Shown: positions 9,724 to 52,633 of the stretch, in pieces
Position numbering within the stretch: position 1 is the stretch's first letter
Layout of the letters: each line of letters starts with the position of its first letter
Assembly (NCBI RefSeq): GCF_028882255.1
Contig: NZ_JARBUY010000001.1
Coordinates: 960,344-1,024,343, forward strand
Source of the DNA: Maribacter polysaccharolyticus
GTDB lineage: Bacteria; Bacteroidota; Bacteroidia; Flavobacteriales; Flavobacteriaceae
DNA length: 64,000 nucleotides
Reading direction: 5' to 3'
Notes under the pieces: model-generated
Database searches by the model: none
What the model was told of the DNA's origin: nothing
The model's input: the letters and a program-made list of their open reading frames with translations, nothing else
Program-made: the position numbers and the translations under genes

Positions 9724-10602
9724 TCATTTTATTACCTGATGCGCTATGATCTCTTTGGCATCATTCGGATTCGTTTTTTGCTTACCTGTCAACAGGTAGA
9801 TGACCATTCCTGCATCCGAAGCGTCAAAATCCCCCTTTTTAATACAGGTCAACTGGCGCTGATACAACCAATCCATCTGCTTTTCTTTTTGGAGTGATTC
9901 CTTTCTGATGGGTGTTGTCTTTATCCAAGAGAACAATTCTTTAGGGGCTTTCATCCCCTCATAGTCCTCACCGCCATTCTGATCGAGGATTCGATCCAAA
10001 ACCAACCCCTCGGGTTCGAATTTGTTTTTGATTTGATCCCATGTCCATCCCGAATGGTTTTCCCAATCATAGGGTTTGTTCGAATGGTTGTTATTCCAAT
10101 TCGAATGTGATATAAGTCGAACAAATTTCAACTTGGAAGGTTTTGCCTTTTCGATGGCACAGCCTACCACATGCATTGGCCCGGCCGCAATAATATATAA
10201 CGGACTCTTCTCGCTCGATCTATCGATCGCATCGGTTATCGCACGAATTGCCTTTTTGGGGCGCTCCACAGCTTCAATAAAATTTGAATTCCCAAAGTTG
10301 AATATTTTTTTCCCTTCGAGAGCACTTACCAACATTTCTTCTTTACCTTTCTCCTTATCGTGGTTACTTCCCCAGATATGATCACTGAAAGTATAAACGG
10401 TAAGACTATCCTGTAATCCTTTCGCAGCAAGCAGCGCCAGGGAAAAAGGTGTTGCGGCCCAATCATCATGATCGTGCTCATTACCATCCGAGCTAATGAC
10501 GATCCTACCTTGAGCATACGGTATGGTTTGTGCTTTGCCTTCCAAAGAGGATACCCCTAGCAATATAAAAAGAATGCAATTATATGTTAGGCGCTTATTC
10601 AT
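9724..10602 (-). CDS. Exported nucleoside-hydrolase-like protein
   Basis: A 292 aa protein with a signal peptide (about 1-24, ending EGKAQ). Right after it comes SSDGNEHDHDDWAATP, resembling the DxDxxxDD calcium-binding signature of the inosine-uridine nucleoside hydrolase fold. A later segment YIIAAGPMHVVGCAI resembles the N-G-P-hydrophobic motif of that fold. A nucleosidase has no obvious place in a polysaccharide operon, so it may be a glycosidase built on this fold. The gene ends 121 bp upstream of GH29 and starts 8 bp after GH88, so it is firmly in the operon. Function unassigned. Confidence 0.6.
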   Translation of the reverse strand: MNKRLTYNCILFILLGVSSLEGKAQTIPYAQGRIVISSDGNEHDHDDWAATPFSLALLAAKGLQDSLTVYTFSDHIWGSNHDKEKGKEEMLVSALEGKKIFNFGNSNFIEAVERPKKAIRAITDAIDRSSEKSPLYIIAAGPMHVVGCAIEKAKPSKLKFVRLISHSNWNNNHSNKPYDWENHSGWTWDQIKNKFEPEGLVLDRILDQNGGEDYEGMKAPKELFSWIKTTPIRKESLQKEKQMDWLYQRQLTCIKKGDFDASDAGMVIYLLTGKQKTNPNDAKEIIAHQVIK

Positions 10603-10610
10603 ATAAAATG

Positions 10611-11828
10611 TTATGATTTAACCACGTTTTGACTATCCGCAGCTTCGTCCAATTTTTTCAATCGCAATAGGGCCTCCATATAGTAATAATCGGCATAAAC
10701 AATAGGAATGTCTATTTCAGAATTTTTGGGATAATGCCCCGTGGAATGTAGCAATAATGCCTGGTTGGCGTCCCCACTATAATATTCCTTGGACGAAAGT
10801 ACGGTAACCAAATGCCTGGCAGCATCTTCATATTTTTGCTTCAATTCCTCATTTTCGACCAAACCGGACAACTCCAACAAACCACATGCAGCCACCCCGG
10901 CCGCAGAGGCATCTTTTGGTGCGTTCGGGATATCCGGGGCATCAAAATCCCAGAATGGGATACCATCTTCAGGCAAACGGTTCAAGAAATGGTCCGCTAC
11001 CTTTATGGAAGTATCCAGAAAATCTTTTCTATTCGTTTCCCTAGCCGCAATGGCAAAACCATAAATCCCCCAAGTCTGTCCCCTGGCCCACATCGATTCA
11101 TCGGCATAACCCTGATGGGTTTTCCCTTCTATGAAATCTCCGGTAACCTCATCAAAGGAACCCACATGATATATGGCACTATCAGGTCTGACCAAATTCT
11201 TCATGGTCACATTGGCATGACTTTCCGCTATATCGTATAAGTCATGACTACCCCCGTTCTTTGCGGCCCAAAAAAGCAACTCCAAGTTCATCATATTATC
11301 GATGATGGTGTTGTGTTTGAATTTCTTTACCTGGGAAGGCCATGAAAGTATACTGCCCACATTCGGATTGTATAGTGTGGCCAAGGTATCGGCCGCGGAC
11401 AACAACACCTGTTTATATTCGGGATCCCCCGTTAATCGATACCCATGACCATAGCTTAAGTACACCATAAAACCAATATCATGGTTATCGGCAGGGCTAT
11501 AGGCGATGGTCTTTAATGGGGCGGTGAATTTTTCCGCTTCCTTCTTTATCGATTCGTCCCCTGAAGCTTCGTAGGCATACCACAGAATGCCGGGCCAGAA
11601 CCCACTACACCAATCGTATACATCGACCGTTTCCCAAGTGGTCTGTCCTTCCGGAATATTTCTAGGAAATTGATCGGCGCTTTCGACCGTTGACGCTGTC
11701 GCTTTAATTTTTTTGACATTATCGGATAACACCTTGGTAGGTGAAAATTCAATAATCTCCTTTTTTTCCGTGGCACATGAAACAATCAATAACGAAACAA
11801 ATAAAATTAGTGGTTGCCTTATTCTCAT
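10611..11828 (-). CDS. Unsaturated glucuronyl hydrolase, GH88 lipoprotein
   Basis: Taking the ATG at 11828 gives 405 aa with a lipoprotein signal (MRIRQPLILFVSLLIVSC, Cys18). A longer frame to 11909 adds a hydrophilic leader and is less likely. GH88 features: DWCSGFWPGILWYAYE (72-87), HDIGFM with Asp117, IIDNMMNLELLFWA with Asp177, and GYADESMWARGQTWGIYGFA. The two Asp residues correspond to the catalytic pair of this (alpha/alpha)6-barrel family. It hydrates the 4,5-unsaturated uronic acid left by a lyase. It is the first gene of the leftward operon and, with the lyase-like gene at the left edge, implies uronic acid in the substrate. Confidence 0.92.
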   Translation of the reverse strand: MRIRQPLILFVSLLIVSCATEKKEIIEFSPTKVLSDNVKKIKATASTVESADQFPRNIPEGQTTWETVDVYDWCSGFWPGILWYAYEASGDESIKKEAEKFTAPLKTIAYSPADNHDIGFMVYLSYGHGYRLTGDPEYKQVLLSAADTLATLYNPNVGSILSWPSQVKKFKHNTIIDNMMNLELLFWAAKNGGSHDLYDIAESHANVTMKNLVRPDSAIYHVGSFDEVTGDFIEGKTHQGYADESMWARGQTWGIYGFAIAARETNRKDFLDTSIKVADHFLNRLPEDGIPFWDFDAPDIPNAPKDASAAGVAACGLLELSGLVENEELKQKYEDAARHLVTVLSSKEYYSGDANQALLLHSTGHYPKNSEIDIPIVYADYYYMEALLRLKKLDEAADSQNVVKS

Positions 11829-44520: not shown

Positions 44521-44626
44521 AATTGCATCTTTTTACTGCACATCATGCAATTACTATATCTTTTTGCAATTTAAAACAGCAAAATTATTGCATTAATAAA
44601 ATATGATTCCTAGATTTACTGCAATT
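44521..44626. promoter_or_regulatory. Cluster of TGCAAT(T) sites, putative DeoR operator
   Basis: In the 141-bp spacer between the repressor and susC the heptamer TGCAATT occurs at 44546-44552, 44565-44571 and 44620-44626. It occurs inverted as AATTGCA at 44521-44527 and as ATTGCA at 44587-44592. Five copies in 106 bp are far more than expected by chance even in AT-rich DNA. Use as the repressor binding site is inference. Confidence 0.6.
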
Positions 44627-44642
44627 CTAAACCACCTTTTTT

Positions 44643-47600
44643 ATGAAAAAACTCAAACATGTCTTCATGTTCTTGGTTCTCCTTCTTGGGTTGAACTCCG
44701 TTCTCGCCCAAACCAAGACCATTTCAGGGACAGTCAACGACACTGACGGCCAACCTTTGCCAGGGGCCAATGTATTTATCAAAGGCACTACCTACGGGGA
44801 AGTGACCGATTTTGACGGAAAATTCCAAATAGAGGTTGATGATGCCAGTAAAAAAACCCTGGTCATTAGTTATCTTGGTTTTGTAACCCAGGAAATTGTA
44901 CTTACAGGTGAAAGTCAAGATTTGACGATTGCCATGCCGGAAGATGCAAATAACTTGGACGAAGTGGTTGTTTTGGGATCATCGGTTACCCAAGAAAGAA
45001 AAAAACTTGGTAATGCCATTACAACCATAAAATCCGCCAAACTTATAGAAGCGGCCCCAGTAAGTGTAACTTCTTCGCTTCAAGGAAAAGTTCCGGGAGC
45101 ACAGATCACCCAGAACTCCGGTGATCCTGCCGGTGGATTTTCCATTCGATTGAGAGGTCCCAGTACCATTAAGGGGTCTTCTGAACCCTTGTATGTCGTG
45201 GATGGGGTTATCGCCAGTAACCTGACCACCAATGTCACCAACCTTAACGTATCTGCAGGCGATGCCAGTCCCGGACAGAATAGGATGGTAGATATCAACC
45301 CAAATGATATTGACAACATCAATATCCTGAACGGTGCAGCTGCAGCTGCTATTTATGGCTCCCGCGCCTCCAACGGGGTTGTGGTCATTACAACAAAAAA
45401 GGGCAAAACCTTTGAAAATGGTCCGGAAATGACCTTCAAAACCGGATTCAATATCAATACCGTCAGAAAAAAATTGGATTTAAATCTAATAGGAGAGGAA
45501 TTTGAGACCGTTCCTGTTGGATCCTTGGCCGGTAGACTATGGCCAATTTTCGGTTATGATACCGAAACCAATACTGCCACACCATATACGAATCTAAGTA
45601 CGGAAAAGTTCGAAACGACAAGATATGATTACCAAGATCAAATCTTCCAAACCGGTTTTGGTACCGATAATCATTTTATGGCCCGTAACGGCAACGGTGC
45701 TATGAATTATATGGCATCCGTAGGCTATACGAGCAATGAAGGTATTATCAAAAACACGAAGTACGATCGCTTTTCTGCCCGTTTGAAATTCGACCATAAT
45801 ATTGCCGATTGGATTTCATATGATATAGGCTTATATTTTTCATCCAGTAAATCCAATGAAAAACCGGATGGTAATGTTTTCTGGAGTCCCATCAACTCCA
45901 TGAATATCACCAACAACGTCTATGATATCACCCAACGTGATGCCGATGGCAACCTAATGGCCGTTGAACCTACCAGGATAAACCCTTTGAGCATCATTGA
46001 AACTTTTGATATTACCCAAAAGGTAAATCGAATTATCCCCAATGCCCATTTAAAAATAACCCCAATGGAAAATCTTACCATTGATCAGATTATTGGTGTG
46101 GACACCTATAATCAAAAAGGACATATTTATATCCCCGTTTACCCCTATGATGGAGTGAACGCGGCATACTATGACAACGGTTACCTAGGGAATGCAGAAG
46201 CCAAAATTTTTAACTGGAACTATGACATTACCGCCAACTATGATTGGAAGATCAGTGAAAAATTAAACTCATCCACTACTGGGGGGTATAGTTTCCAATC
46301 CAGCCAATTGGAAATGGACGCTACCCAAGGAAGGGGCTTGGACGACACCGGAACTCCAACCATCCCCTTACAATACAATCCAGTGGATTCCAACTTGGAC
46401 ATTTACGGGTTCTTCCTTCAAGAAACACTTAGCTACGATAACAAATTGTTCCTTACGGTTGCGGGTCGTATAGACGGTGCGACAAATTTTGATGTTGACA
46501 ACAGAAGTAATTTCTATCCAAAAGTTTCCGGTTCATACCTTCTCTCCAACGAACCTTTCTGGAATACGGATGGTTTCTTTAATTCGGCGAGACTAAGGGT
46601 ATCTTATGGCGAAGCGGGCAACCTCACCGCTATTTCCCCTTACGAAAGATTCAGCAGCTATACCCCCAATGAGTTTTCAGGCGCCGAGAGCCTTCAACAA
46701 AACAACACATTGGGCAATGAAGATTTGGTCCCTGAACGCACCAAGGAGTTTGAAATAGGTACAGATCTCAGTTTTTGGAACGACAGGGCCGGTTTGTTAC
46801 TGTCTTATTACAGCCAAAAAATCGAAGACCTTATTGTAACCCGTGTTTTGGCCCCTTCCATTGGTGGGGAATCGCGCACGGAAAATGTAGGTAGCATGCA
46901 AAATAAGGGATTGGAAATTTACGCGAGGATAACCCCGGTAAAAACAGCGGACTTGACTTGGGATTTGAACCTAAACTTCAGTACCAACAAGAATAAGGTC
47001 TTGGAAACCACTGGTGGCGACATCACAATATCCACCGTTGCCGGCGCAACCCCTATCGTACGTGAGGGAGAGGCCTTGGGCGTATTTTACGGCACCTATT
47101 ACGCCAAAGACGAAAATGGAGATCTAATTTTATCAGGAGCCTCGACAGATGGTTCACCGGTAGGTGTCCCACAACAAGAAAGAGGGGATGCCACAACCGG
47201 TATAGCCCAACGTGATGAGGATGGTCAACCAACAGGGGATGCTTTACGTAAAATCATAGGTGACCCGAACCCCGATTATATCATGGGCATAGGAACCGAT
47301 TTAAAATACAAGAACTTTAATTTTTCCATGTTGTGGGAATCCGTTCAAGGTTTTGATGTGTTCGATGCCGATAAGCGAACCCGACAAGGTGTTGGGTTAG
47401 GAAGGTTGGCAGCCCAAGAACTTACAGGAGAGCTTCCAAGAGGATACATTGCCGGCATTTACCCAATTGAAGAATTTAGGATCGAAGATGGTTCCTTTGT
47501 AAAACTAAGGGAAGTATCTTTATCTTACACCTTCCCTTCTTTGTTCAACGATACGCTGAAAAATGTAAAAGTATCATTGATAGGAAGAAACTTGATCTCC

Positions 47601-47729
47601 TTCGATAATTTTTGGAGTTATGACCCGGAAACCAACGCTGGTGGACAATCCAACCTGTTGCGTTCTGTAAACTTTGGAAACGTGCCAATACCGAGCACTT
47701 TCGCCCTGTCAATTAGCACTAACCTATAA
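44643..47729 (+). CDS. susC: SusC/RagA-family TonB-dependent transporter (MurNAc/peptidoglycan-type locus)
   Basis: A 1028 aa outer-membrane importer. Signal peptide 1-22 (ending SVLAQ), carboxypeptidase-regulatory-like domain (about 25-105, QPLPGANVFIKGTTYGEVTDF), TonB-box-like DEVVVLGSSVTQERK, plug with LRGPSTIKGSSEPLYVVDGV and NDIDNINILNGAAAAAIYGSRASNGVV, then the barrel ending TFALSISTNL. First gene of a five-gene operon whose other members handle N-acetylmuramic acid. The cargo is inferred to be muropeptide or MurNAc-containing sugar. The susD partner begins 10 bp downstream. Confidence 0.95.
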   Translation: MKKLKHVFMFLVLLLGLNSVLAQTKTISGTVNDTDGQPLPGANVFIKGTTYGEVTDFDGKFQIEVDDASKKTLVISYLGFVTQEIVLTGESQDLTIAMPEDANNLDEVVVLGSSVTQERKKLGNAITTIKSAKLIEAAPVSVTSSLQGKVPGAQITQNSGDPAGGFSIRLRGPSTIKGSSEPLYVVDGVIASNLTTNVTNLNVSAGDASPGQNRMVDINPNDIDNINILNGAAAAAIYGSRASNGVVVITTKKGKTFENGPEMTFKTGFNINTVRKKLDLNLIGEEFETVPVGSLAGRLWPIFGYDTETNTATPYTNLSTEKFETTRYDYQDQIFQTGFGTDNHFMARNGNGAMNYMASVGYTSNEGIIKNTKYDRFSARLKFDHNIADWISYDIGLYFSSSKSNEKPDGNVFWSPINSMNITNNVYDITQRDADGNLMAVEPTRINPLSIIETFDITQKVNRIIPNAHLKITPMENLTIDQIIGVDTYNQKGHIYIPVYPYDGVNAAYYDNGYLGNAEAKIFNWNYDITANYDWKISEKLNSSTTGGYSFQSSQLEMDATQGRGLDDTGTPTIPLQYNPVDSNLDIYGFFLQETLSYDNKLFLTVAGRIDGATNFDVDNRSNFYPKVSGSYLLSNEPFWNTDGFFNSARLRVSYGEAGNLTAISPYERFSSYTPNEFSGAESLQQNNTLGNEDLVPERTKEFEIGTDLSFWNDRAGLLLSYYSQKIEDLIVTRVLAPSIGGESRTENVGSMQNKGLEIYARITPVKTADLTWDLNLNFSTNKNKVLETTGGDITISTVAGATPIVREGEALGVFYGTYYAKDENGDLILSGASTDGSPVGVPQQERGDATTGIAQRDEDGQPTGDALRKIIGDPNPDYIMGIGTDLKYKNFNFSMLWESVQGFDVFDADKRTRQGVGLGRLAAQELTGELPRGYIAGIYPIEEFRIEDGSFVKLREVSLSYTFPSLFNDTLKNVKVSLIGRNLISFDNFWSYDPETNAGGQSNLLRSVNFGNVPIPSTFALSISTNL

Positions 47730-47739
47730 ATTGAAAGAA

Positions 47740-49047
47740 ATGAAAGGAATATATAAAATTATATTGTTGGTTACCTTGACCCTTGGGGCCATATCTTGCG
47801 ATAAGGTATATTTAGATCCCAATTCCACCCTGGAACCGGATGTGGAAACCGACACAGACAATCTAGTAAAATTGATAAATGGCATACAACAACGTTGGAG
47901 TGCCGAAAGGACGGGCTTACTGTATACCACGGTAAATATCACAGGCTTGAATACCGGTGAACTACAACTTCTCAATCCCGGTAACGAAGGGGAGAATGAA
48001 ATCCTTTTGGGTGGAGACGATGTTAGCGGTGACAATGAATTACTTGGCAATATGTGGACCAATGCCATGCTTTGTAGAAAAGAGGCCACCACGGTCATTA
48101 ACTCAGCTGAAATTGCTTCAGACGATACCTCGGTAAGTAATACGTTGAAAGCCCATGGCCTATTTTATAGAGCTTTGGTCCACGGAACATTGATTCAGTA
48201 TTTTGAACAAGTACCTCTTGAAATCATTGACAATGCCCCATTCAGCGATAAAACGACGGTCCTTCAAAATGCCATTTCCGATTTAAACGAAGCCAAAGGA
48301 TATATCGATACTGGATTAGCTACTGAAGTAACCACTGATCTTATTGGATCTGTAGATTTGGAAAATTCGGTTAATGCCTTATTGGCGCGCTTTAACTTAA
48401 TGGCCGGAAATTACCTTGACGCAATAGTGGCCGCGGATGAAGTGGACACCTCAATACAGTCTACCTGGTCATTTGACGCATCAATCCCAAATCCATTGGC
48501 ATTTTGGTTCGGATCACAAAACGTTACCCAAGCTAAGGACGCAAATTTTGCGCTTTCAGATGATTTGCTTCCGGAAGATGGGGATCAACGTGTAGACTTT
48601 TATGTCTATAGTGATGACCCGGATGCAGAAATACCGGTTTATGAGGTTACCGCATTTTTTGATGATGACCTGGATGAGATCCCCGTTTACCTGCCCGGTG
48701 AAATGACCCTTATTAAAGCTGAAGCCTACGCCCGAACCAATGATTTGGATAATGCGGTCACACAACTGAACTTGGTGCGCAATAAAACCGCTGCAGAAGA
48801 TGCCTTTGATTTAGGTGCCGCCTTGGACGACTACTCGGGATCGCTTGATGCCGAATCGATTTTGGATGAGATTTACCGAAATCGTAGAATCGAACTCTAT
48901 CTATCGAGTCTAGGTCTTGAGGATAGCCGAAGATTTGACCGACCTGGTCCTGAGGATGAAAATGCTGAACGCAATAGAAATTACTACCCTTACCCCAATG
49001 AGGAGAGGGACAACAACACGAATACCCCCTCAAATCCAACATCATAA
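47740..49047 (+). CDS. susD: SusD/RagB-family lipoprotein (short form)
   Basis: The ATG at 47740 gives 435 aa with lipoprotein signal (MKGIYKIILLVTLTLGAISC, Cys20); a longer frame overlaps susC. SusD traits include LLGNMWTNAMLCRKEATTVI, AHGLFYRALVHGTLIQYFEQVPL, MTLIKAEAYARTNDLDNAVTQLNLVRNK and ILDEIYRNRRIELYLSS. It is about 100-150 aa shorter than usual and ends in a low-complexity polar tail (NNTNTPSNPTS). It should serve as the binding lid of the preceding SusC. A terminator-like hairpin follows before the namZ-type gene. Confidence 0.92.
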   Translation: MKGIYKIILLVTLTLGAISCDKVYLDPNSTLEPDVETDTDNLVKLINGIQQRWSAERTGLLYTTVNITGLNTGELQLLNPGNEGENEILLGGDDVSGDNELLGNMWTNAMLCRKEATTVINSAEIASDDTSVSNTLKAHGLFYRALVHGTLIQYFEQVPLEIIDNAPFSDKTTVLQNAISDLNEAKGYIDTGLATEVTTDLIGSVDLENSVNALLARFNLMAGNYLDAIVAADEVDTSIQSTWSFDASIPNPLAFWFGSQNVTQAKDANFALSDDLLPEDGDQRVDFYVYSDDPDAEIPVYEVTAFFDDDLDEIPVYLPGEMTLIKAEAYARTNDLDNAVTQLNLVRNKTAAEDAFDLGAALDDYSGSLDAESILDEIYRNRRIELYLSSLGLEDSRRFDRPGPEDENAERNRNYYPYPNEERDNNTNTPSNPTS

Positions 49048-49098
49048 TCTAAAGATTGTTGTTAGTAACTAGTTGATGCCCTAGTTCTTGTTGCTTAT

Positions 49099-49130
49099 CC
49101 AAGCCAAATCAGGTATTTGGCTTGGATTTT
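49099..49130 (+). terminator. Hairpin between susD and the NamZ-type gene
   Basis: CCAAGCCAAA (49099-49108) pairs perfectly with TTTGGCTTGG (49116-49125) around a 7-nt loop, then ATTTTT. It lies 22 bp before the next ATG (49152). It probably attenuates expression of the cytoplasmic genes relative to susCD, or a new promoter follows; none was clear. Confidence 0.7.
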
Positions 49131-49151
49131 TCAATCTTAAAAAATGATGAT

Positions 49152-50342
49152 ATGCCGAAAATAAAAACAGGATTGGATGTACTTGTGGAAGATTATGGTC
49201 TTCAGCGTGAATTTCCAGGACAAGTCGCCCTGTTATGCCATAATGCTTCCGTGAATAGCAGCTTGGAACATGCCACACTGGCTTTTAAAAAAATTTTCTC
49301 AGATCGTTTTGTTAAGATATTTGGTCCCCAGCACGGGTTTTGTACCGATGCACAAGACAATATGATTGAAACGGCCCATAACGTACACCCCTATTTCAAT
49401 ATTCCGGTCTATTCCCTTTATTCGGAAACGCGGGTGCCAACGGAAGCCATGTTGGAAGGGGTCGACCATTTGTTCATAGACCTTCAGGATGTGGGCTGCA
49501 GGATGTACACCTACATCTATACGATGACCCTTATTTTAGAGGCTTGCGTATCGAAGGACATAGAAATCATCATCCTTGATCGACCAAACCCCTTAAACGG
49601 AATGGACTTGGAAGGTAACATCCTGAATATGGATTTTACCTCGTTCATAGGACGTCATCCCATACCCGTAAGGCACGGAATGACCATTGGTGAGGTTGCC
49701 TTAATGCATCAAAAACATTGGACCCATGAAAAAGCAAATTTACGGATCGTGGCCATGCAGGGTTGGAAAAGAGACATGTTTTATGAGGACACCGGACTAC
49801 CATGGTTATTGCCCTCACCCAATCTATCCAGGATTGAAAGCGCTTTTACCTTTCCCGGCATAGTGTTATTCGAGGGAACCAAACTCAGTGAAGGACGGGG
49901 CACCACACAGCCTTTGGAAATAATGGGCCATCCAAGCATAGAACCCTATGGTCTATGGGACACGCACTTGTCCAAAGCATTTGCCAAAAGTGGTTTGGAA
50001 GGCGTGGCTATACGCCCCATCAATTTCTTACCCACTTTTCAAAAACAGGCCAATGTAGCCTGTGGCGGTTTTCAAATGCATGTCTTGAATCGGAAAATCT
50101 TTAAACCTTGGAGAACCGGACAGTGGTTGATGCGGGAATTGTACAAACACATGGATACAAATTTCGAATGGCTTGACCCACCTTATGAATACGATTATGA
50201 CCATATGCCCATCGACATAATAAATGGTACCGATAAGCTGCGAAAATGGGTCGTTTCACAGGGATCGATGGCCGAACTGGATGCCATGGAAAACCTGTCG
50301 GGATATCAATCCATATTCTCGGACATTAAATTATACACCTAA
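49152..50342 (+). CDS. namZ: Exo-beta-N-acetylmuramidase, NamZ type (DUF1343, GH171), no signal peptide
   Basis: A 396 aa protein from the ATG at 49152; a TTG ten codons upstream lies inside the hairpin and is rejected. It matches DUF1343, the family of NamZ enzymes that remove MurNAc from the non-reducing end of peptidoglycan chains. Motifs: FGPQHGFCTDAQDN, LFIDLQDVGCRMYTYIYTM, LDRPNPLNG, and the strongly conserved LFEGTKLSEGRGTTQPLE. No hydrophobic leader is visible, unlike secreted homologues, suggesting cytoplasmic action on an imported MurNAc-containing disaccharide. The neighbours are a symporter and MurQ. Confidence 0.88.
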   Translation: MPKIKTGLDVLVEDYGLQREFPGQVALLCHNASVNSSLEHATLAFKKIFSDRFVKIFGPQHGFCTDAQDNMIETAHNVHPYFNIPVYSLYSETRVPTEAMLEGVDHLFIDLQDVGCRMYTYIYTMTLILEACVSKDIEIIILDRPNPLNGMDLEGNILNMDFTSFIGRHPIPVRHGMTIGEVALMHQKHWTHEKANLRIVAMQGWKRDMFYEDTGLPWLLPSPNLSRIESAFTFPGIVLFEGTKLSEGRGTTQPLEIMGHPSIEPYGLWDTHLSKAFAKSGLEGVAIRPINFLPTFQKQANVACGGFQMHVLNRKIFKPWRTGQWLMRELYKHMDTNFEWLDPPYEYDYDHMPIDIINGTDKLRKWVVSQGSMAELDAMENLSGYQSIFSDIKLYT

Positions 50343-50364
50343 TTACGAAATAAAATATCCTGAA

Positions 50365-51813
50365 GTGAAGCCATTTGTTGTATTTACGATTATTGTTGCC
50401 TATTTCTGTTTATTGATGGTTATCTCCTACCTGACTTCTAGAAAAACCGATAACGAAACCTATTTTACAGGAGACCGCAAGTCACCTTGGTTTTTAGTGG
50501 CTTTTGGTATGATCGGGGCCGGCTTATCGGGGGTAACTTTCGTTTCGGTCCCGGGTATGGTCGCCAACAATAACCTTTATTTTTTCCAATTTGTTTTGGG
50601 AAACGTACTCGGCTACCTCTTCATCACCTTTGTTTTGATTCCGTTGTATTATAAATTAAGGTTGGTTTCCATATATGGATATTTAAAGAATCGTTTTGGA
50701 ACTGTCTCCTATAAGACGGGATCACTCATTTTTTTGATTTCCCAGTCCTTCGGCGCCGCACTTCGACTACTTTTAGCCGCAAAAATCCTTCAATTTGTAT
50801 TCTTTGATTCCATTGGTGTCCCCTTTATCCTGACGGTGGTCGTCATATTGATCCTAGTGTGGTTATATACCAACAAATCGGGAATAAAAACCATTGTGTG
50901 GACCGATACCATACAGACGGCATTTTTGATCATGGGTGCGGTTTTTACCATTGTGGCCATAATGCAATCATTCAATTTCACCGTTGGTGGTGCGATCCAT
51001 GCGGTAAAGGAACACGAATATTTCAAAATCTTTGAATGGAACGGCAATTCGCCGAACAATTTTTTCAAACAGTTCATTTCGGGCTTTTTTATTGCCATTG
51101 CCATGATGGGACTTGACCAGAATATGATGCAAAAGACCTTAACCTGCAAAAATAGGTGGGATGCCCAAAAGAACACATTAACCTATAGTCTAATCTTGGC
51201 CGGGACCCAATTCTTGTTCTTGGGGTTAGGTATTTTACTCTACCTATATGCTGAAAACAACGGTGTTTACCTACCCCAAGATAAAAACGGGACCTTTCTG
51301 GATACCGACATGCTATTTCCCAATTTGACCATGAACTATCTTGGTACTTTGGCCGGGGTCAGTTTTTTATTGGGCATCATAGCCGCTTCGTTCTCCAGTG
51401 TCGATTCGGCCCTTACGGCATTGACGACTTCATTCACATATGACTTTCTTGAGATTGACAAAAAGATCGGCACCAACGTCAGATCCGTCAAGAACAAGGT
51501 ACTTATTGCCTTTTCCACTATCCTGTTTTTAATAATAATGGTGTTTTCAGGGAGTAAAGGTGATGTGATTTCGTTGGTGTTTACCATGGCAGGCTATACC
51601 TATGGCCCATTATTGGGACTATTTATGTTTGGAATGTTCACCAAAATACAACTTAAGGATAAGTGGGTGCCGATAATATGTGTATTGGCCCCAATATCCA
51701 CCTATTTCATCGGAATATTTTTAAAGGAATCATACGGTTTTGATATGGGCTTTTTTACAATTGCCGTAATCGGCGCCCTAACCCTTATTGGACTGATATT
51801 AATTAGAAAATAA
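50365..51813 (+). CDS. Sodium:solute symporter family transporter, probable MurNAc/disaccharide importer
   Basis: About 482 aa from a GTG start at 50365, 22 bp after the namZ stop. No ATG occurs at a sensible place, and the longer frame reads through namZ. It begins with a hydrophobic helix (VKPFVVFTIIVAYFCLLMVISYL) and then YFTGDRKSPWFLVAFGMIGAGLSGVTFVSVPG, the SSS core start. Further marks are GYLFITFVLIPLYYKLRLVSIYGYLKNRFG, GLDQNMMQKTLTCKN and SFSSVDSALTALTTSF, the sodium-site helix. Inner-membrane sodium-driven uptake of MurNAc or a MurNAc disaccharide is inferred from namZ and murQ. It ends 1 bp before murQ. Confidence 0.87.
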   Translation: MKPFVVFTIIVAYFCLLMVISYLTSRKTDNETYFTGDRKSPWFLVAFGMIGAGLSGVTFVSVPGMVANNNLYFFQFVLGNVLGYLFITFVLIPLYYKLRLVSIYGYLKNRFGTVSYKTGSLIFLISQSFGAALRLLLAAKILQFVFFDSIGVPFILTVVVILILVWLYTNKSGIKTIVWTDTIQTAFLIMGAVFTIVAIMQSFNFTVGGAIHAVKEHEYFKIFEWNGNSPNNFFKQFISGFFIAIAMMGLDQNMMQKTLTCKNRWDAQKNTLTYSLILAGTQFLFLGLGILLYLYAENNGVYLPQDKNGTFLDTDMLFPNLTMNYLGTLAGVSFLLGIIAASFSSVDSALTALTTSFTYDFLEIDKKIGTNVRSVKNKVLIAFSTILFLIIMVFSGSKGDVISLVFTMAGYTYGPLLGLFMFGMFTKIQLKDKWVPIICVLAPISTYFIGIFLKESYGFDMGFFTIAVIGALTLIGLILIRK

Positions 51814-51814
51814 T

Positions 51815-52633
51815 ATGAAAACATTTAATCCTATAACAGAACAACCTTCCCTATTTGACCATTTGGAGGATATGGACACATTGGAATTGTTGACCAACAT
51901 CAATAGTATGGACAAGACAGTTCCCCAAGCAATTGAAGTAGCCATTCCGGCTATAAAACGTTTTGTGGATGCAACTTACGAAAAGATGGAACATGGAGGC
52001 CGCCTATTCTATATAGGAGCGGGTACAAGTGGTCGTCTGGGGGTTCTGGATGCTTCTGAGTGCCCTCCCACATTTGGGGTAGACTATGATATGATCATCG
52101 GCCTAATCGCGGGGGGTGATTACGCCCTAAGAAAGGCGGTAGAGAATGCCGAGGATGATACCGAACAAGCATGGAAAGACCTCACTCAATTCGATATTGA
52201 CAAGAATGACGTGGTTTTGGGTATTGCCGCTTCAGGCACCACCCCCTATGTCATCGGAGGATTGAAAAAAGCCCGTATCAACGGTTTGGTTACAGGCTGC
52301 ATTGTCTGCAACCTCAATTCACCCATGGCTGAAGAAGCCACCTATCCCATAGAACTGGTAGTAGGTCCCGAATTTGTAACCGGGAGCACCCGTATGAAAA
52401 GCGGAACGGCCCAAAAATTGGTCTTGAACATGATATCAACCGCTATCATGGTCAAACTTGGGCGTGTAAAGGGAAATAAAATGGTGGATATGCAATTGTC
52501 GAATAAAAAACTGGTACAGCGCGCTATTCGAATGCTGATGGATGAACTTCATGTTAATGAAAAGGAAGCTTCCCTTTTATTGGAAAAACACCACAACGTG
52601 CGAAAGGTATTTAAGCATTACGGAAAGCATTGA
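51815..52633 (+). CDS. murQ: N-acetylmuramic acid 6-phosphate etherase
   Basis: A 272 aa cytoplasmic enzyme of the SIS fold that cleaves the lactyl ether of MurNAc-6-phosphate to GlcNAc-6-phosphate and D-lactate. Visible: GAGTSGRLG (68-76), catalytic Glu82 in ASECPPTFG (E. coli Glu83), Glu113 in ENAEDD (E. coli Glu114), IAASGTTPYVIGG, and the signature VGPEFVTGSTRMKSGTAQK. It is somewhat shorter than E. coli MurQ (298 aa) at the C-terminus. Last gene of the operon, followed by a terminator. It firmly marks the operon as one for MurNAc utilisation. Confidence 0.97.
   Translation: MKTFNPITEQPSLFDHLEDMDTLELLTNINSMDKTVPQAIEVAIPAIKRFVDATYEKMEHGGRLFYIGAGTSGRLGVLDASECPPTFGVDYDMIIGLIAGGDYALRKAVENAEDDTEQAWKDLTQFDIDKNDVVLGIAASGTTPYVIGGLKKARINGLVTGCIVCNLNSPMAEEATYPIELVVGPEFVTGSTRMKSGTAQKLVLNMISTAIMVKLGRVKGNKMVDMQLSNKKLVQRAIRMLMDELHVNEKEASLLLEKHHNVRKVFKHYGKH

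Follow-up and report, generated by a model that had tools for sequence, protein, structure and literature searches.

The operon and its products

The stretch of 64,000 nucleotides analysed here (the window) comes from the flavobacterium Maribacter polysaccharolyticus (assembly GCF_028882255.1, contig NZ_JARBUY010000001.1, positions 960,344 to 1,024,343) and holds five genes, susC, susD, namZ, a sodium:solute symporter (SSS) gene and murQ, which follow one another on the plus strand. A first-pass annotation had read them as an operon for scavenging N-acetylmuramic acid (MurNAc) and peptidoglycan fragments, with a DeoR regulator opposite. The coordinates, strand, intergenic gaps (10, 104, 22 and 1 bp), gene identities and opposing regulator that it gave all hold when judged by open reading frames (ORFs) and the cut-offs of hidden Markov models (HMMs).

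The susC gene (44643-47729) encodes a SusC/RagA TonB-dependent outer-membrane transporter (TIGR04056, 655.6 bits, cut-off 368), and sequence comparison with the structure database finds solved SusC relatives. The product of susD (47740-49047) is a divergent SusD-type surface lipoprotein that matches PF07980 weakly (27.5 bits, cut-off 23.1). A sequence search of solved structures returned no relative of this protein; its AlphaFold model (mean pLDDT 68; one of 12 models made for window and locus proteins) matched 17 solved chains at E<=1e-3 in Foldseek, all of them, by their titles, SusD-type proteins or SusCD-type complexes. On the HMMs and these fold matches, susC adjoins susD as it does in a polysaccharide utilisation locus (PUL). 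The fold neighbours were also considered as a guide to the SusD ligand and set aside, the matches being generic SusD-type only. Downstream, namZ (49152-50342) encodes a DUF1343/GH171 NamZ homologue with both domains of the family (PF07075, 253.5 bits; PF20732, 120.8 bits; cut-offs 26.9 and 25). The SSS gene (50365-51813) has a GTG start and scores 90.7 bits against PF00474 (cut-off 22.8) and 146 against TIGR00813, under the cut-off of 184. The murQ gene (51815-52633), one of two copies in the genome, encodes a MurNAc 6-phosphate etherase (TIGR00274 equivalog, 327.9 bits, cut-off 302) with E82 and E113, which would correspond to the two catalytic glutamates of Escherichia coli MurQ. The divergent deoR gene lies on the minus strand from 43746 to probably 44501 and exceeds the cut-offs of PF00455 and PF08220; its start is placed by inference at M16, an in-frame ATG of a 266-residue ORF whose longest form reaches 44546.

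A signal-less NamZ subfamily

Bacillus subtilis NamZ (YbbC), reportedly the founder of GH171, is secreted. The window enzyme shares its two-domain architecture but is signal-less by our rule and carries the motif QHG...QDNM in place of EHG; we call the subfamily of DUF1343/GH171 with this motif NamZ-Q. Among 76 NamZ rows the motif is present in 40, and the other 36 have EHG without QDNM. Signal-like N-termini were scored with a hydropathy rule (a 12-residue window over the first 40 residues) rather than a trained predictor. By this rule none of the 40 NamZ-Q rows has a signal-like N-terminus (the score of 2.05 for L019 is due solely to an upstream start codon). All exported-type flavobacterial NamZ proteins have one, including the second NamZ of this genome, on contig C14, and seven of the 36 EHG rows are signal-less (three Bacillaceae, three Oscillospiraceae and L056). 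In a tree of the 76 rows, with L019 labelled by hand as lacking a signal and L044 as having one, the signal label changes twice, whereas shuffled labels need 23.4 changes and none of 500 shuffles needs as few as two. The window NamZ falls in a 40-row clade with support 100/98 whose members are, by name, the QHG...QDNM rows; the clade also takes in Saprospiria, Balneolota and single metagenome-assembled genomes (MAGs) labelled Nitrospirae, Desulfobacterales and Proteobacteria. Residues H61, D113, D143 and E181 are invariant in 75 of 75 alignment rows, the NamZ-Q row L024 being outside the alignment.

Because NamZ-Q has no evident signal, any reaction that it catalyses is expected in the cytosol, and the combination of signal-less N-terminus and altered motif means that the earlier statement that NamZ releases MurNAc is not simply transferable to the window enzyme and is not supported as it was written. 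We consider tentatively that NamZ-Q, with Gln for the conserved Glu and a QDNM loop that may have been remodelled, may be a separate intracellular DUF1343 class doing another reaction than the exported enzyme and fed intact disaccharide by SusCD and the Na+ symporter; such a reaction might be, for example, the cleavage of MurNAc-6P linked to N-acetylglucosamine (GlcNAc), which would make it the Bacteroidota counterpart of MupG, or phosphorolysis of MurNAc-GlcNAc.

Signal-less NamZ proteins of the EHG type stand beside MurQ in three Bacillaceae loci (L041-L043). In the Bacillus locus L041 the namZ gene (10001-11158 of that locus) directly precedes murQ and is accompanied by an ABC sugar importer, an RpiR-type regulator and a BadF-type kinase; this would be a separate case of import before cleavage. 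L042 has NamZ-MurQ with a weak BadF-type kinase match, and L043 was seen by eye to contain an ABC importer, a BadF-like kinase, NamZ and MurQ. Inspection by eye also places another carrier type next to NamZ-Q, in a MAG labelled Proteobacteria (L032, 2358-5727), where the neighbours are an MFS carrier resembling FucP/NagP and a ROK-type kinase. One study reportedly deals with NamZ1 and NamZ2 of Tannerella forsythia. Neither a SusCD-coupled MurNAc operon nor a cytosolic NamZ was found in the literature searched, which consisted mostly of open papers and is no proof of absence.

Conservation of the gene order

When named genomes were scanned with the NamZ of the window, 54 loci were obtained; 30 of them form the close flavobacterial group (L004-L031, L036 and L045; L014 is a MAG named only as Bacteroidetes); duplicates (L002, L059-L061) are omitted from the counts. 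Genes in the loci were called as longest ORFs, and a few labels that proved wrong, such as that of the L051 gene overlapping NamZ, were left aside. HMMs were applied to a single representative of each neighbour family (L006, L015, L017, L020, L023, L026 and L031), and BLAST was used for the others. In 17 of the 30 loci NamZ-Q runs on into SSS and MurQ. SusD lies upstream in all 17, as does SusC except in L005, where the contig ends, and a divergent DeoR is present in 15, the contigs of L005 and L008 ending before it. SusCD and NamZ occur with neither SSS nor MurQ following in three of the 30 (L009, L013 and L015). In L011, L018, L029 and L036 a DUF6259 gene separates SSS from MurQ; DUF6259 proteins (PF19773, scanned in L017) were noted within the gene runs of those four loci and of L013, L015, L017, L062 and L065.

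Three kinds of SusCD pair surround the one NamZ-SSS-MurQ core. Six of the 17 loci have pairs related to that of the window (type a, PF07980; SusD identity 37-82%), ten have a type b pair (SusD matching PF12771, scanned in L006; SusC 27-29% identical to the window SusC), and the third kind, in Kriegella aquimaris DSM 19886 (L017), was recognised from reading the sequence, with no HMM. Outside the Flavobacteriaceae, Phaeodactylibacter (L037) has the full set in rearranged form, with SSS-SusD-SusC divergent from DeoR-MurQ-NamZ.

Because the named-genome scan matches exact peptide words and therefore favours close relatives, a second, unselected survey was made over 149 genomes of the family; it shares several genomes with the first, and its neighbourhoods were read from tblastn tables. 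Matches to MurQ were found in 146 genomes, to the NamZ family in 147 and to SSS (at 1e-100) in 147. Window-type NamZ (at least 60% identity) is much rarer, with ten matches in eight genomes, and nine of the ten sit in a SusCD operon (eight with SusD directly upstream and G113 with two genes between). Window-type SSS (at least 60% identity) gave 13 matches in 12 genomes, ten of them no more than 3 kb from MurQ; by an informal estimate, for genomes of 2-6 Mb with one to three MurQ matches, well under one such site would be expected by chance. A SusCD pair is present at eight of these ten sites, the contig ends at one (G127), and G022 has a pair of none of the types tested. The other SSS rows are rarely near MurQ: among those listed, examined by eye and not counted, only G118 is within 3 kb. 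The susCD-namZ-SSS-murQ order that the first-pass annotation proposed to survey is therefore conserved, in 17 of 30 loci and with nine of ten survey NamZ-Q matches in SusCD operons.

Some further arrangements were observed. Five Maribacter loci (L010, L012, L016, L019 and L021) have a lone NamZ-Q gene before an ABC gene on the minus strand and a TPR protein gene on the plus strand. The complete operon occupies the corresponding place in L028 and L005, ahead of that same ABC and TPR pair, which would fit gain or loss of SusCD, SSS and MurQ at a single site. In L105, L106 and L108 SusCD and NamZ-Q form a unit that has a DeoR of its own and, nearby, a GH3 gene; in L106 and L108 this unit adjoins an operon with a type b SusCD. 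A phylum-wide NamZ search at E<=1e-75 found matches in 37 of 345 genomes; since 30 of these were rows of 36-41% identity belonging to one other family, the search was rejected as a count of NamZ-Q.

Evidence for a probable peptidoglycan ligand

The operons of some relatives have additional genes. In Lutibacter (L008 and L026) the operon extends into genes for AnmK (510.6 bits, NCBIfam cut-off 436), an FAD/FeS D-2-hydroxyacid dehydrogenase, a protein resembling DgcA and L-Ala-D/L-Glu epimerase, and GH3; the dehydrogenase and epimerase scores lie below their cut-offs and give family placement only. The presence of AnmK, the epimerase-like protein and the dehydrogenase together points to peptidoglycan as the ligand, and the dehydrogenase may plausibly act on the D-lactate that MurQ releases as its second product. 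Other relatives add GH3, NagX-like and NagB genes, an exported-type NamZ, and a GH18 that carries a type IX secretion tail in the member scanned (L020).

Genes for GH18, GH3, NagX-like and NagB proteins are also found in chitin loci, and their presence in relatives could suggest that the ligand is another GlcNAc-rich glycan, such as chitin oligomers, with MurQ dealing with a minor by-product. We regard this as very improbable: the HMM scan recognised no chitin enzyme in the window operon, and we know of no role in chitin use for MurQ, AnmK, or NamZ as it has been characterised. A dedication of the operon to MurNAc-containing wall fragments is, in our judgement, very probable. The earlier idea of a PUL-like system for peptidoglycan thus stands as regards its coupling to SusCD, its DeoR flank, its conservation and the peptidoglycan-sugar enzymes in some relatives; it is not supported as regards the role given to NamZ, and its kinase is absent from the operon.

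The kinase and a second MurNAc locus

MurQ acts on a phosphorylated sugar, and a Pfam/TIGR HMM scan found no kinase in the window operon; an SSS carrier stands beside murQ as in a murTKQ-type operon, but the MurK kinase of such an operon is missing. The sole PF01869 match in the genome is weak (4.1e-4) and lies on contig C17, adjoining, by eye, a GAPDH-like gene. Its nearest solved relatives are 1zxo and 1zbs, followed by T. forsythia MurK (8oqw, 1.4e-46) and K1058 (8oqk, 3.5e-37), the last two codes being printed with Q for O in the source paper. When it is compared with the MurK pocket as described in PMC10465942, the GTGSN stretch is kept and so are the small residues 133-135 (TSL for SPL). 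The position opposite the catalytic D95 of MurK is Tyr in HMMER and in a first MAFFT alignment, and Asp when more orthologues are included in MAFFT. The C17 protein, of putative MurNAc specificity, is a candidate supplier of MurNAc-6-phosphate. The MurNAc pathway as it was first drawn lacks a kinase, and this MurK-type protein is not linked to the operon.

About 22 kb from the kinase lies a second MurNAc locus (G000:C17:282833-317846; L078, L098 and L058), in which MurQ-DeoR is divergent from a NagB/PIG-L fusion, GHL10, an AmpG-like transporter (TIGR00901, 189 bits, below the cut-off of 350), GH3 (by eye without an evident signal) and then AnmK. Its MurQ is 62% and its DeoR 48% identical to those of the operon. 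AnmK, known for its action on anhydro-MurNAc, was considered as the missing kinase and dropped, as it sits with the AmpG-like locus. The C17 locus looks like an anhydro-MurNAc recycling route and has its own DeoR; the window operon would therefore be a second route, probably under separate regulation.

These data bear on the suggestion, made in the first-pass annotation beside scavenging, that the bacterium recycles its own wall through the operon. The near-universal distribution of MurQ and NamZ-family genes in the 149 genomes, together with relatives of the MurK-type kinase in all 60 family genomes examined, indicates that MurNAc turnover is a housekeeping activity in this family. For the window operon itself, recycling is unlikely, because the genome has the separate AmpG-like/GH3/AnmK/MurQ/NagB locus; moreover, fragments arising in the periplasm need no outer-membrane importer, and NamZ-Q is confined to eight of the 149 genomes.

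The symporter

The best solved relative of the SSS protein is 5nv9 (2.5e-28), which we take to be the sialic-acid symporter SiaT. That the nearest structure is a carrier of an acidic N-acetyl sugar favours a MurNAc saccharide as substrate. The described contacts of SiaT with the carboxylate include Ser60, Thr63 and Arg135 (PMC5931594); the operon SSS keeps the first two, and Arg135 is not aligned. Arg135 was tried as a test of specificity for acidic sugars and abandoned, since an Arg is also present in paralogues and the residue does not discriminate. The residue pattern would allow an acidic sugar but is no proof of one. A paralogue with about 45-50% identity to the operon SSS is near universal in the 149 genomes and may transport a related sugar as a housekeeping function.

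The control region

The 141 bp before susC contain five TGCAAT/ATTGCA half-sites (44522-44527, 44546-44551, 44565-44570, 44587-44592 and 44620-44625), which together (44522 to 44625) form a candidate DeoR operator. The entire window holds 36, fewer than its shuffles (mean 51.6). When the 141-bp intergenic sequence was shuffled 5000 times, 16 shuffles reached five, and the Poisson p value at the window rate is 5e-9; the motif was chosen post hoc and both values are flattering. A box on the plus strand, TAGATTTA (44611-44618), lies 18 bp after an ATTGCA and is a -7-like promoter box of the TAnnTTTG type. The arrangement ATTGCA-N18-TAnnTTTG, a motif picked by eye, precedes susC in the window and in L004, L007 and L028, with N19 in L017; no TAnnTTTG box spaced in this way from ATTGCA precedes susC in L022 (Galbibacter orientalis DSM 19592). 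TGCAAT-N5-ATTGCA occurs in L007, L017 and L028 as well. No half-site was found at the other DeoR locus of the genome (L078). The operon has two facing half-sites with 16 bp between them; when one mismatch is allowed, 24 of 100 shuffled windows reach this pattern too. An attempt to define the DeoR regulon in this genome through the palindrome TGCAAT-N4..6-ATTGCA gave two places on contig C19 and none at the operon, and was uninformative.

Between susD and namZ is a 13-bp hairpin followed by a T tract (49097-49127, plus strand), which resembles a terminator or attenuator (z -3.3 for the 104-bp gap). The same gap has a hairpin and T tract in L004 and L028; by the same rule there is none in L005, L007, L009 and L022. 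Such a hairpin could allow more SusCD than enzyme to be produced.

Other genes of the window

Translations of the region from 1634 to 33951 suggest genes for the use of fucose or sulfated fucan: a sulfatase, two GH29-like fucosidases, SusCD and a hybrid two-component regulator, with fucose isomerase, aldolase, kinase, a FucP-like carrier and LutABC-like genes. Two tandem sulfatases (PF00884; 38070-42067) adjoin a protein of the Asp/Glu racemase family whose N-terminus resembles that of a lipoprotein.

Import before cleavage as a proposed route

The conserved locus is real and the earlier idea holds in outline; the correction that it needs is at its central enzyme, NamZ. The best explanation, which we favour by a modest degree, is an accessory locus for peptidoglycan sugars that imports first and cleaves inside the cell; the order of these two steps, taken alone, we regard as evenly balanced. 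SusCD would move soluble MurNAc-containing wall saccharides across the outer membrane on TonB energy, and the Na+ symporter would take a small MurNAc saccharide, either MurNAc or intact MurNAc-GlcNAc, across the inner membrane. In the cytosol NamZ-Q would act on the non-reducing MurNAc residue, and the MurK-family kinase from the other contig, or a different sugar kinase, would yield MurNAc-6-phosphate, which MurQ would convert to GlcNAc-6-phosphate and D-lactate for entry into the Nag route and respiration. DeoR would repress the operon through the TGCAAT sites, whose position would overlap with that of the upstream promoter element, and the appearance of a breakdown product would end the repression.

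Several findings weigh against this explanation. NamZ-Q has Gln where the EHG motif has Glu, and may for that reason not hydrolyse the MurNAc bond. Ten of the 30 flavobacterial NamZ-Q loci, several of which lie on short contigs, show no SusCD, SSS or MurQ, and in G029, the sole survey genome of the same genus, NamZ-Q stands by itself in the 20 kb examined. The C17 kinase has E in place of T94 and EV in place of F34-F35 (FF) of MurK, and because MurK-type kinases are family-wide their presence is no evidence for the window operon in particular. The carboxylate-binding Arg of SiaT is not at the same position in SSS, and the Arg found nearby, one turn on, is shared with paralogues. Lastly, G012, G013 and G021 have SusCD-SSS-MurQ operons in which an exported-type NamZ is the only NamZ; NamZ-Q is nowhere in G012 and G021, and in G013 it follows a different SusCD pair, some 10 kb from the operon. 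SSS can therefore work without NamZ-Q in its operon and may carry free MurNAc.

That last finding leads to a monosaccharide route, in which the exported-type NamZ (C14) and other periplasmic enzymes would free MurNAc, SSS would import it, and NamZ-Q would trim occasional disaccharides. The three operons just described are in keeping with it, as are the lower-identity NamZ matches, of exported type by their identity, in nearly all of the 149 genomes, and the MurT protein of T. forsythia is described as a MurNAc carrier of the sodium-symporter family (PMC5790795). NamZ-Q is, however, closely coupled to SusCD, and a side role for it would not predict the SusCD-NamZ-Q units of L103, L105, L106 and L108, which have no SSS or MurQ directly after them. 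We see the monosaccharide route as possible, at clearly lower probability than import before cleavage.

The operon resembles a canonical Bacteroidota PUL in its susC-susD pair, putatively degradative genes downstream and linked regulator, but it has no surface endo-enzyme, and the regulator is a DeoR protein instead of one of the usual PUL regulators. NamZ-Q is the one candidate degradative enzyme in the window operon, and fuller relatives have GH3 and GH18. Peptidoglycan-targeting families are described as under-represented in PULs (PMC6499787).

We take the ybbC gene of T. forsythia to be a NamZ. The muropeptide/MurNAc operon of that species, Tanf_08345-08385, is listed as xanthan lyase, two gtf genes, lytB, ampG, ybbC, murT, murK and murQ (PMC5388701, PMC5790795); as described there, a single transcription unit likewise contains a gene of the NamZ family, a carrier of the sodium-symporter family and MurQ, with no phosphotransferase system (PTS). 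The genes listed include no SusCD pair and do include a kinase, whereas the window operon has SusCD and a signal-less NamZ-Q and has neither AmpG nor a kinase; control by GppX is described for T. forsythia, in contrast to the neighbouring DeoR here. The mupG-murQ-murP-murR operon of Staphylococcus aureus is similar in importing a MurNAc disaccharide, cleaving it in the cytosol and using MurQ, but the account in PMC6262408 has the PTS phosphorylate the sugar on entry and MupG (DUF871) cleave MurNAc-6P-GlcNAc, in place of the Na+ symporter, unrelated enzyme family and separate kinase found here.

If import before cleavage is correct, some flavobacteria own a full route from the outer to the inner membrane for feeding on the sugars of bacterial walls, and they import before they cleave, as S. 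aureus does, with unrelated parts. GH171 would have an apparently unrecognised cytosolic branch, and the operon would provide a MurNAc-specific SusCD to study and a testable marker for feeding on dead bacteria.

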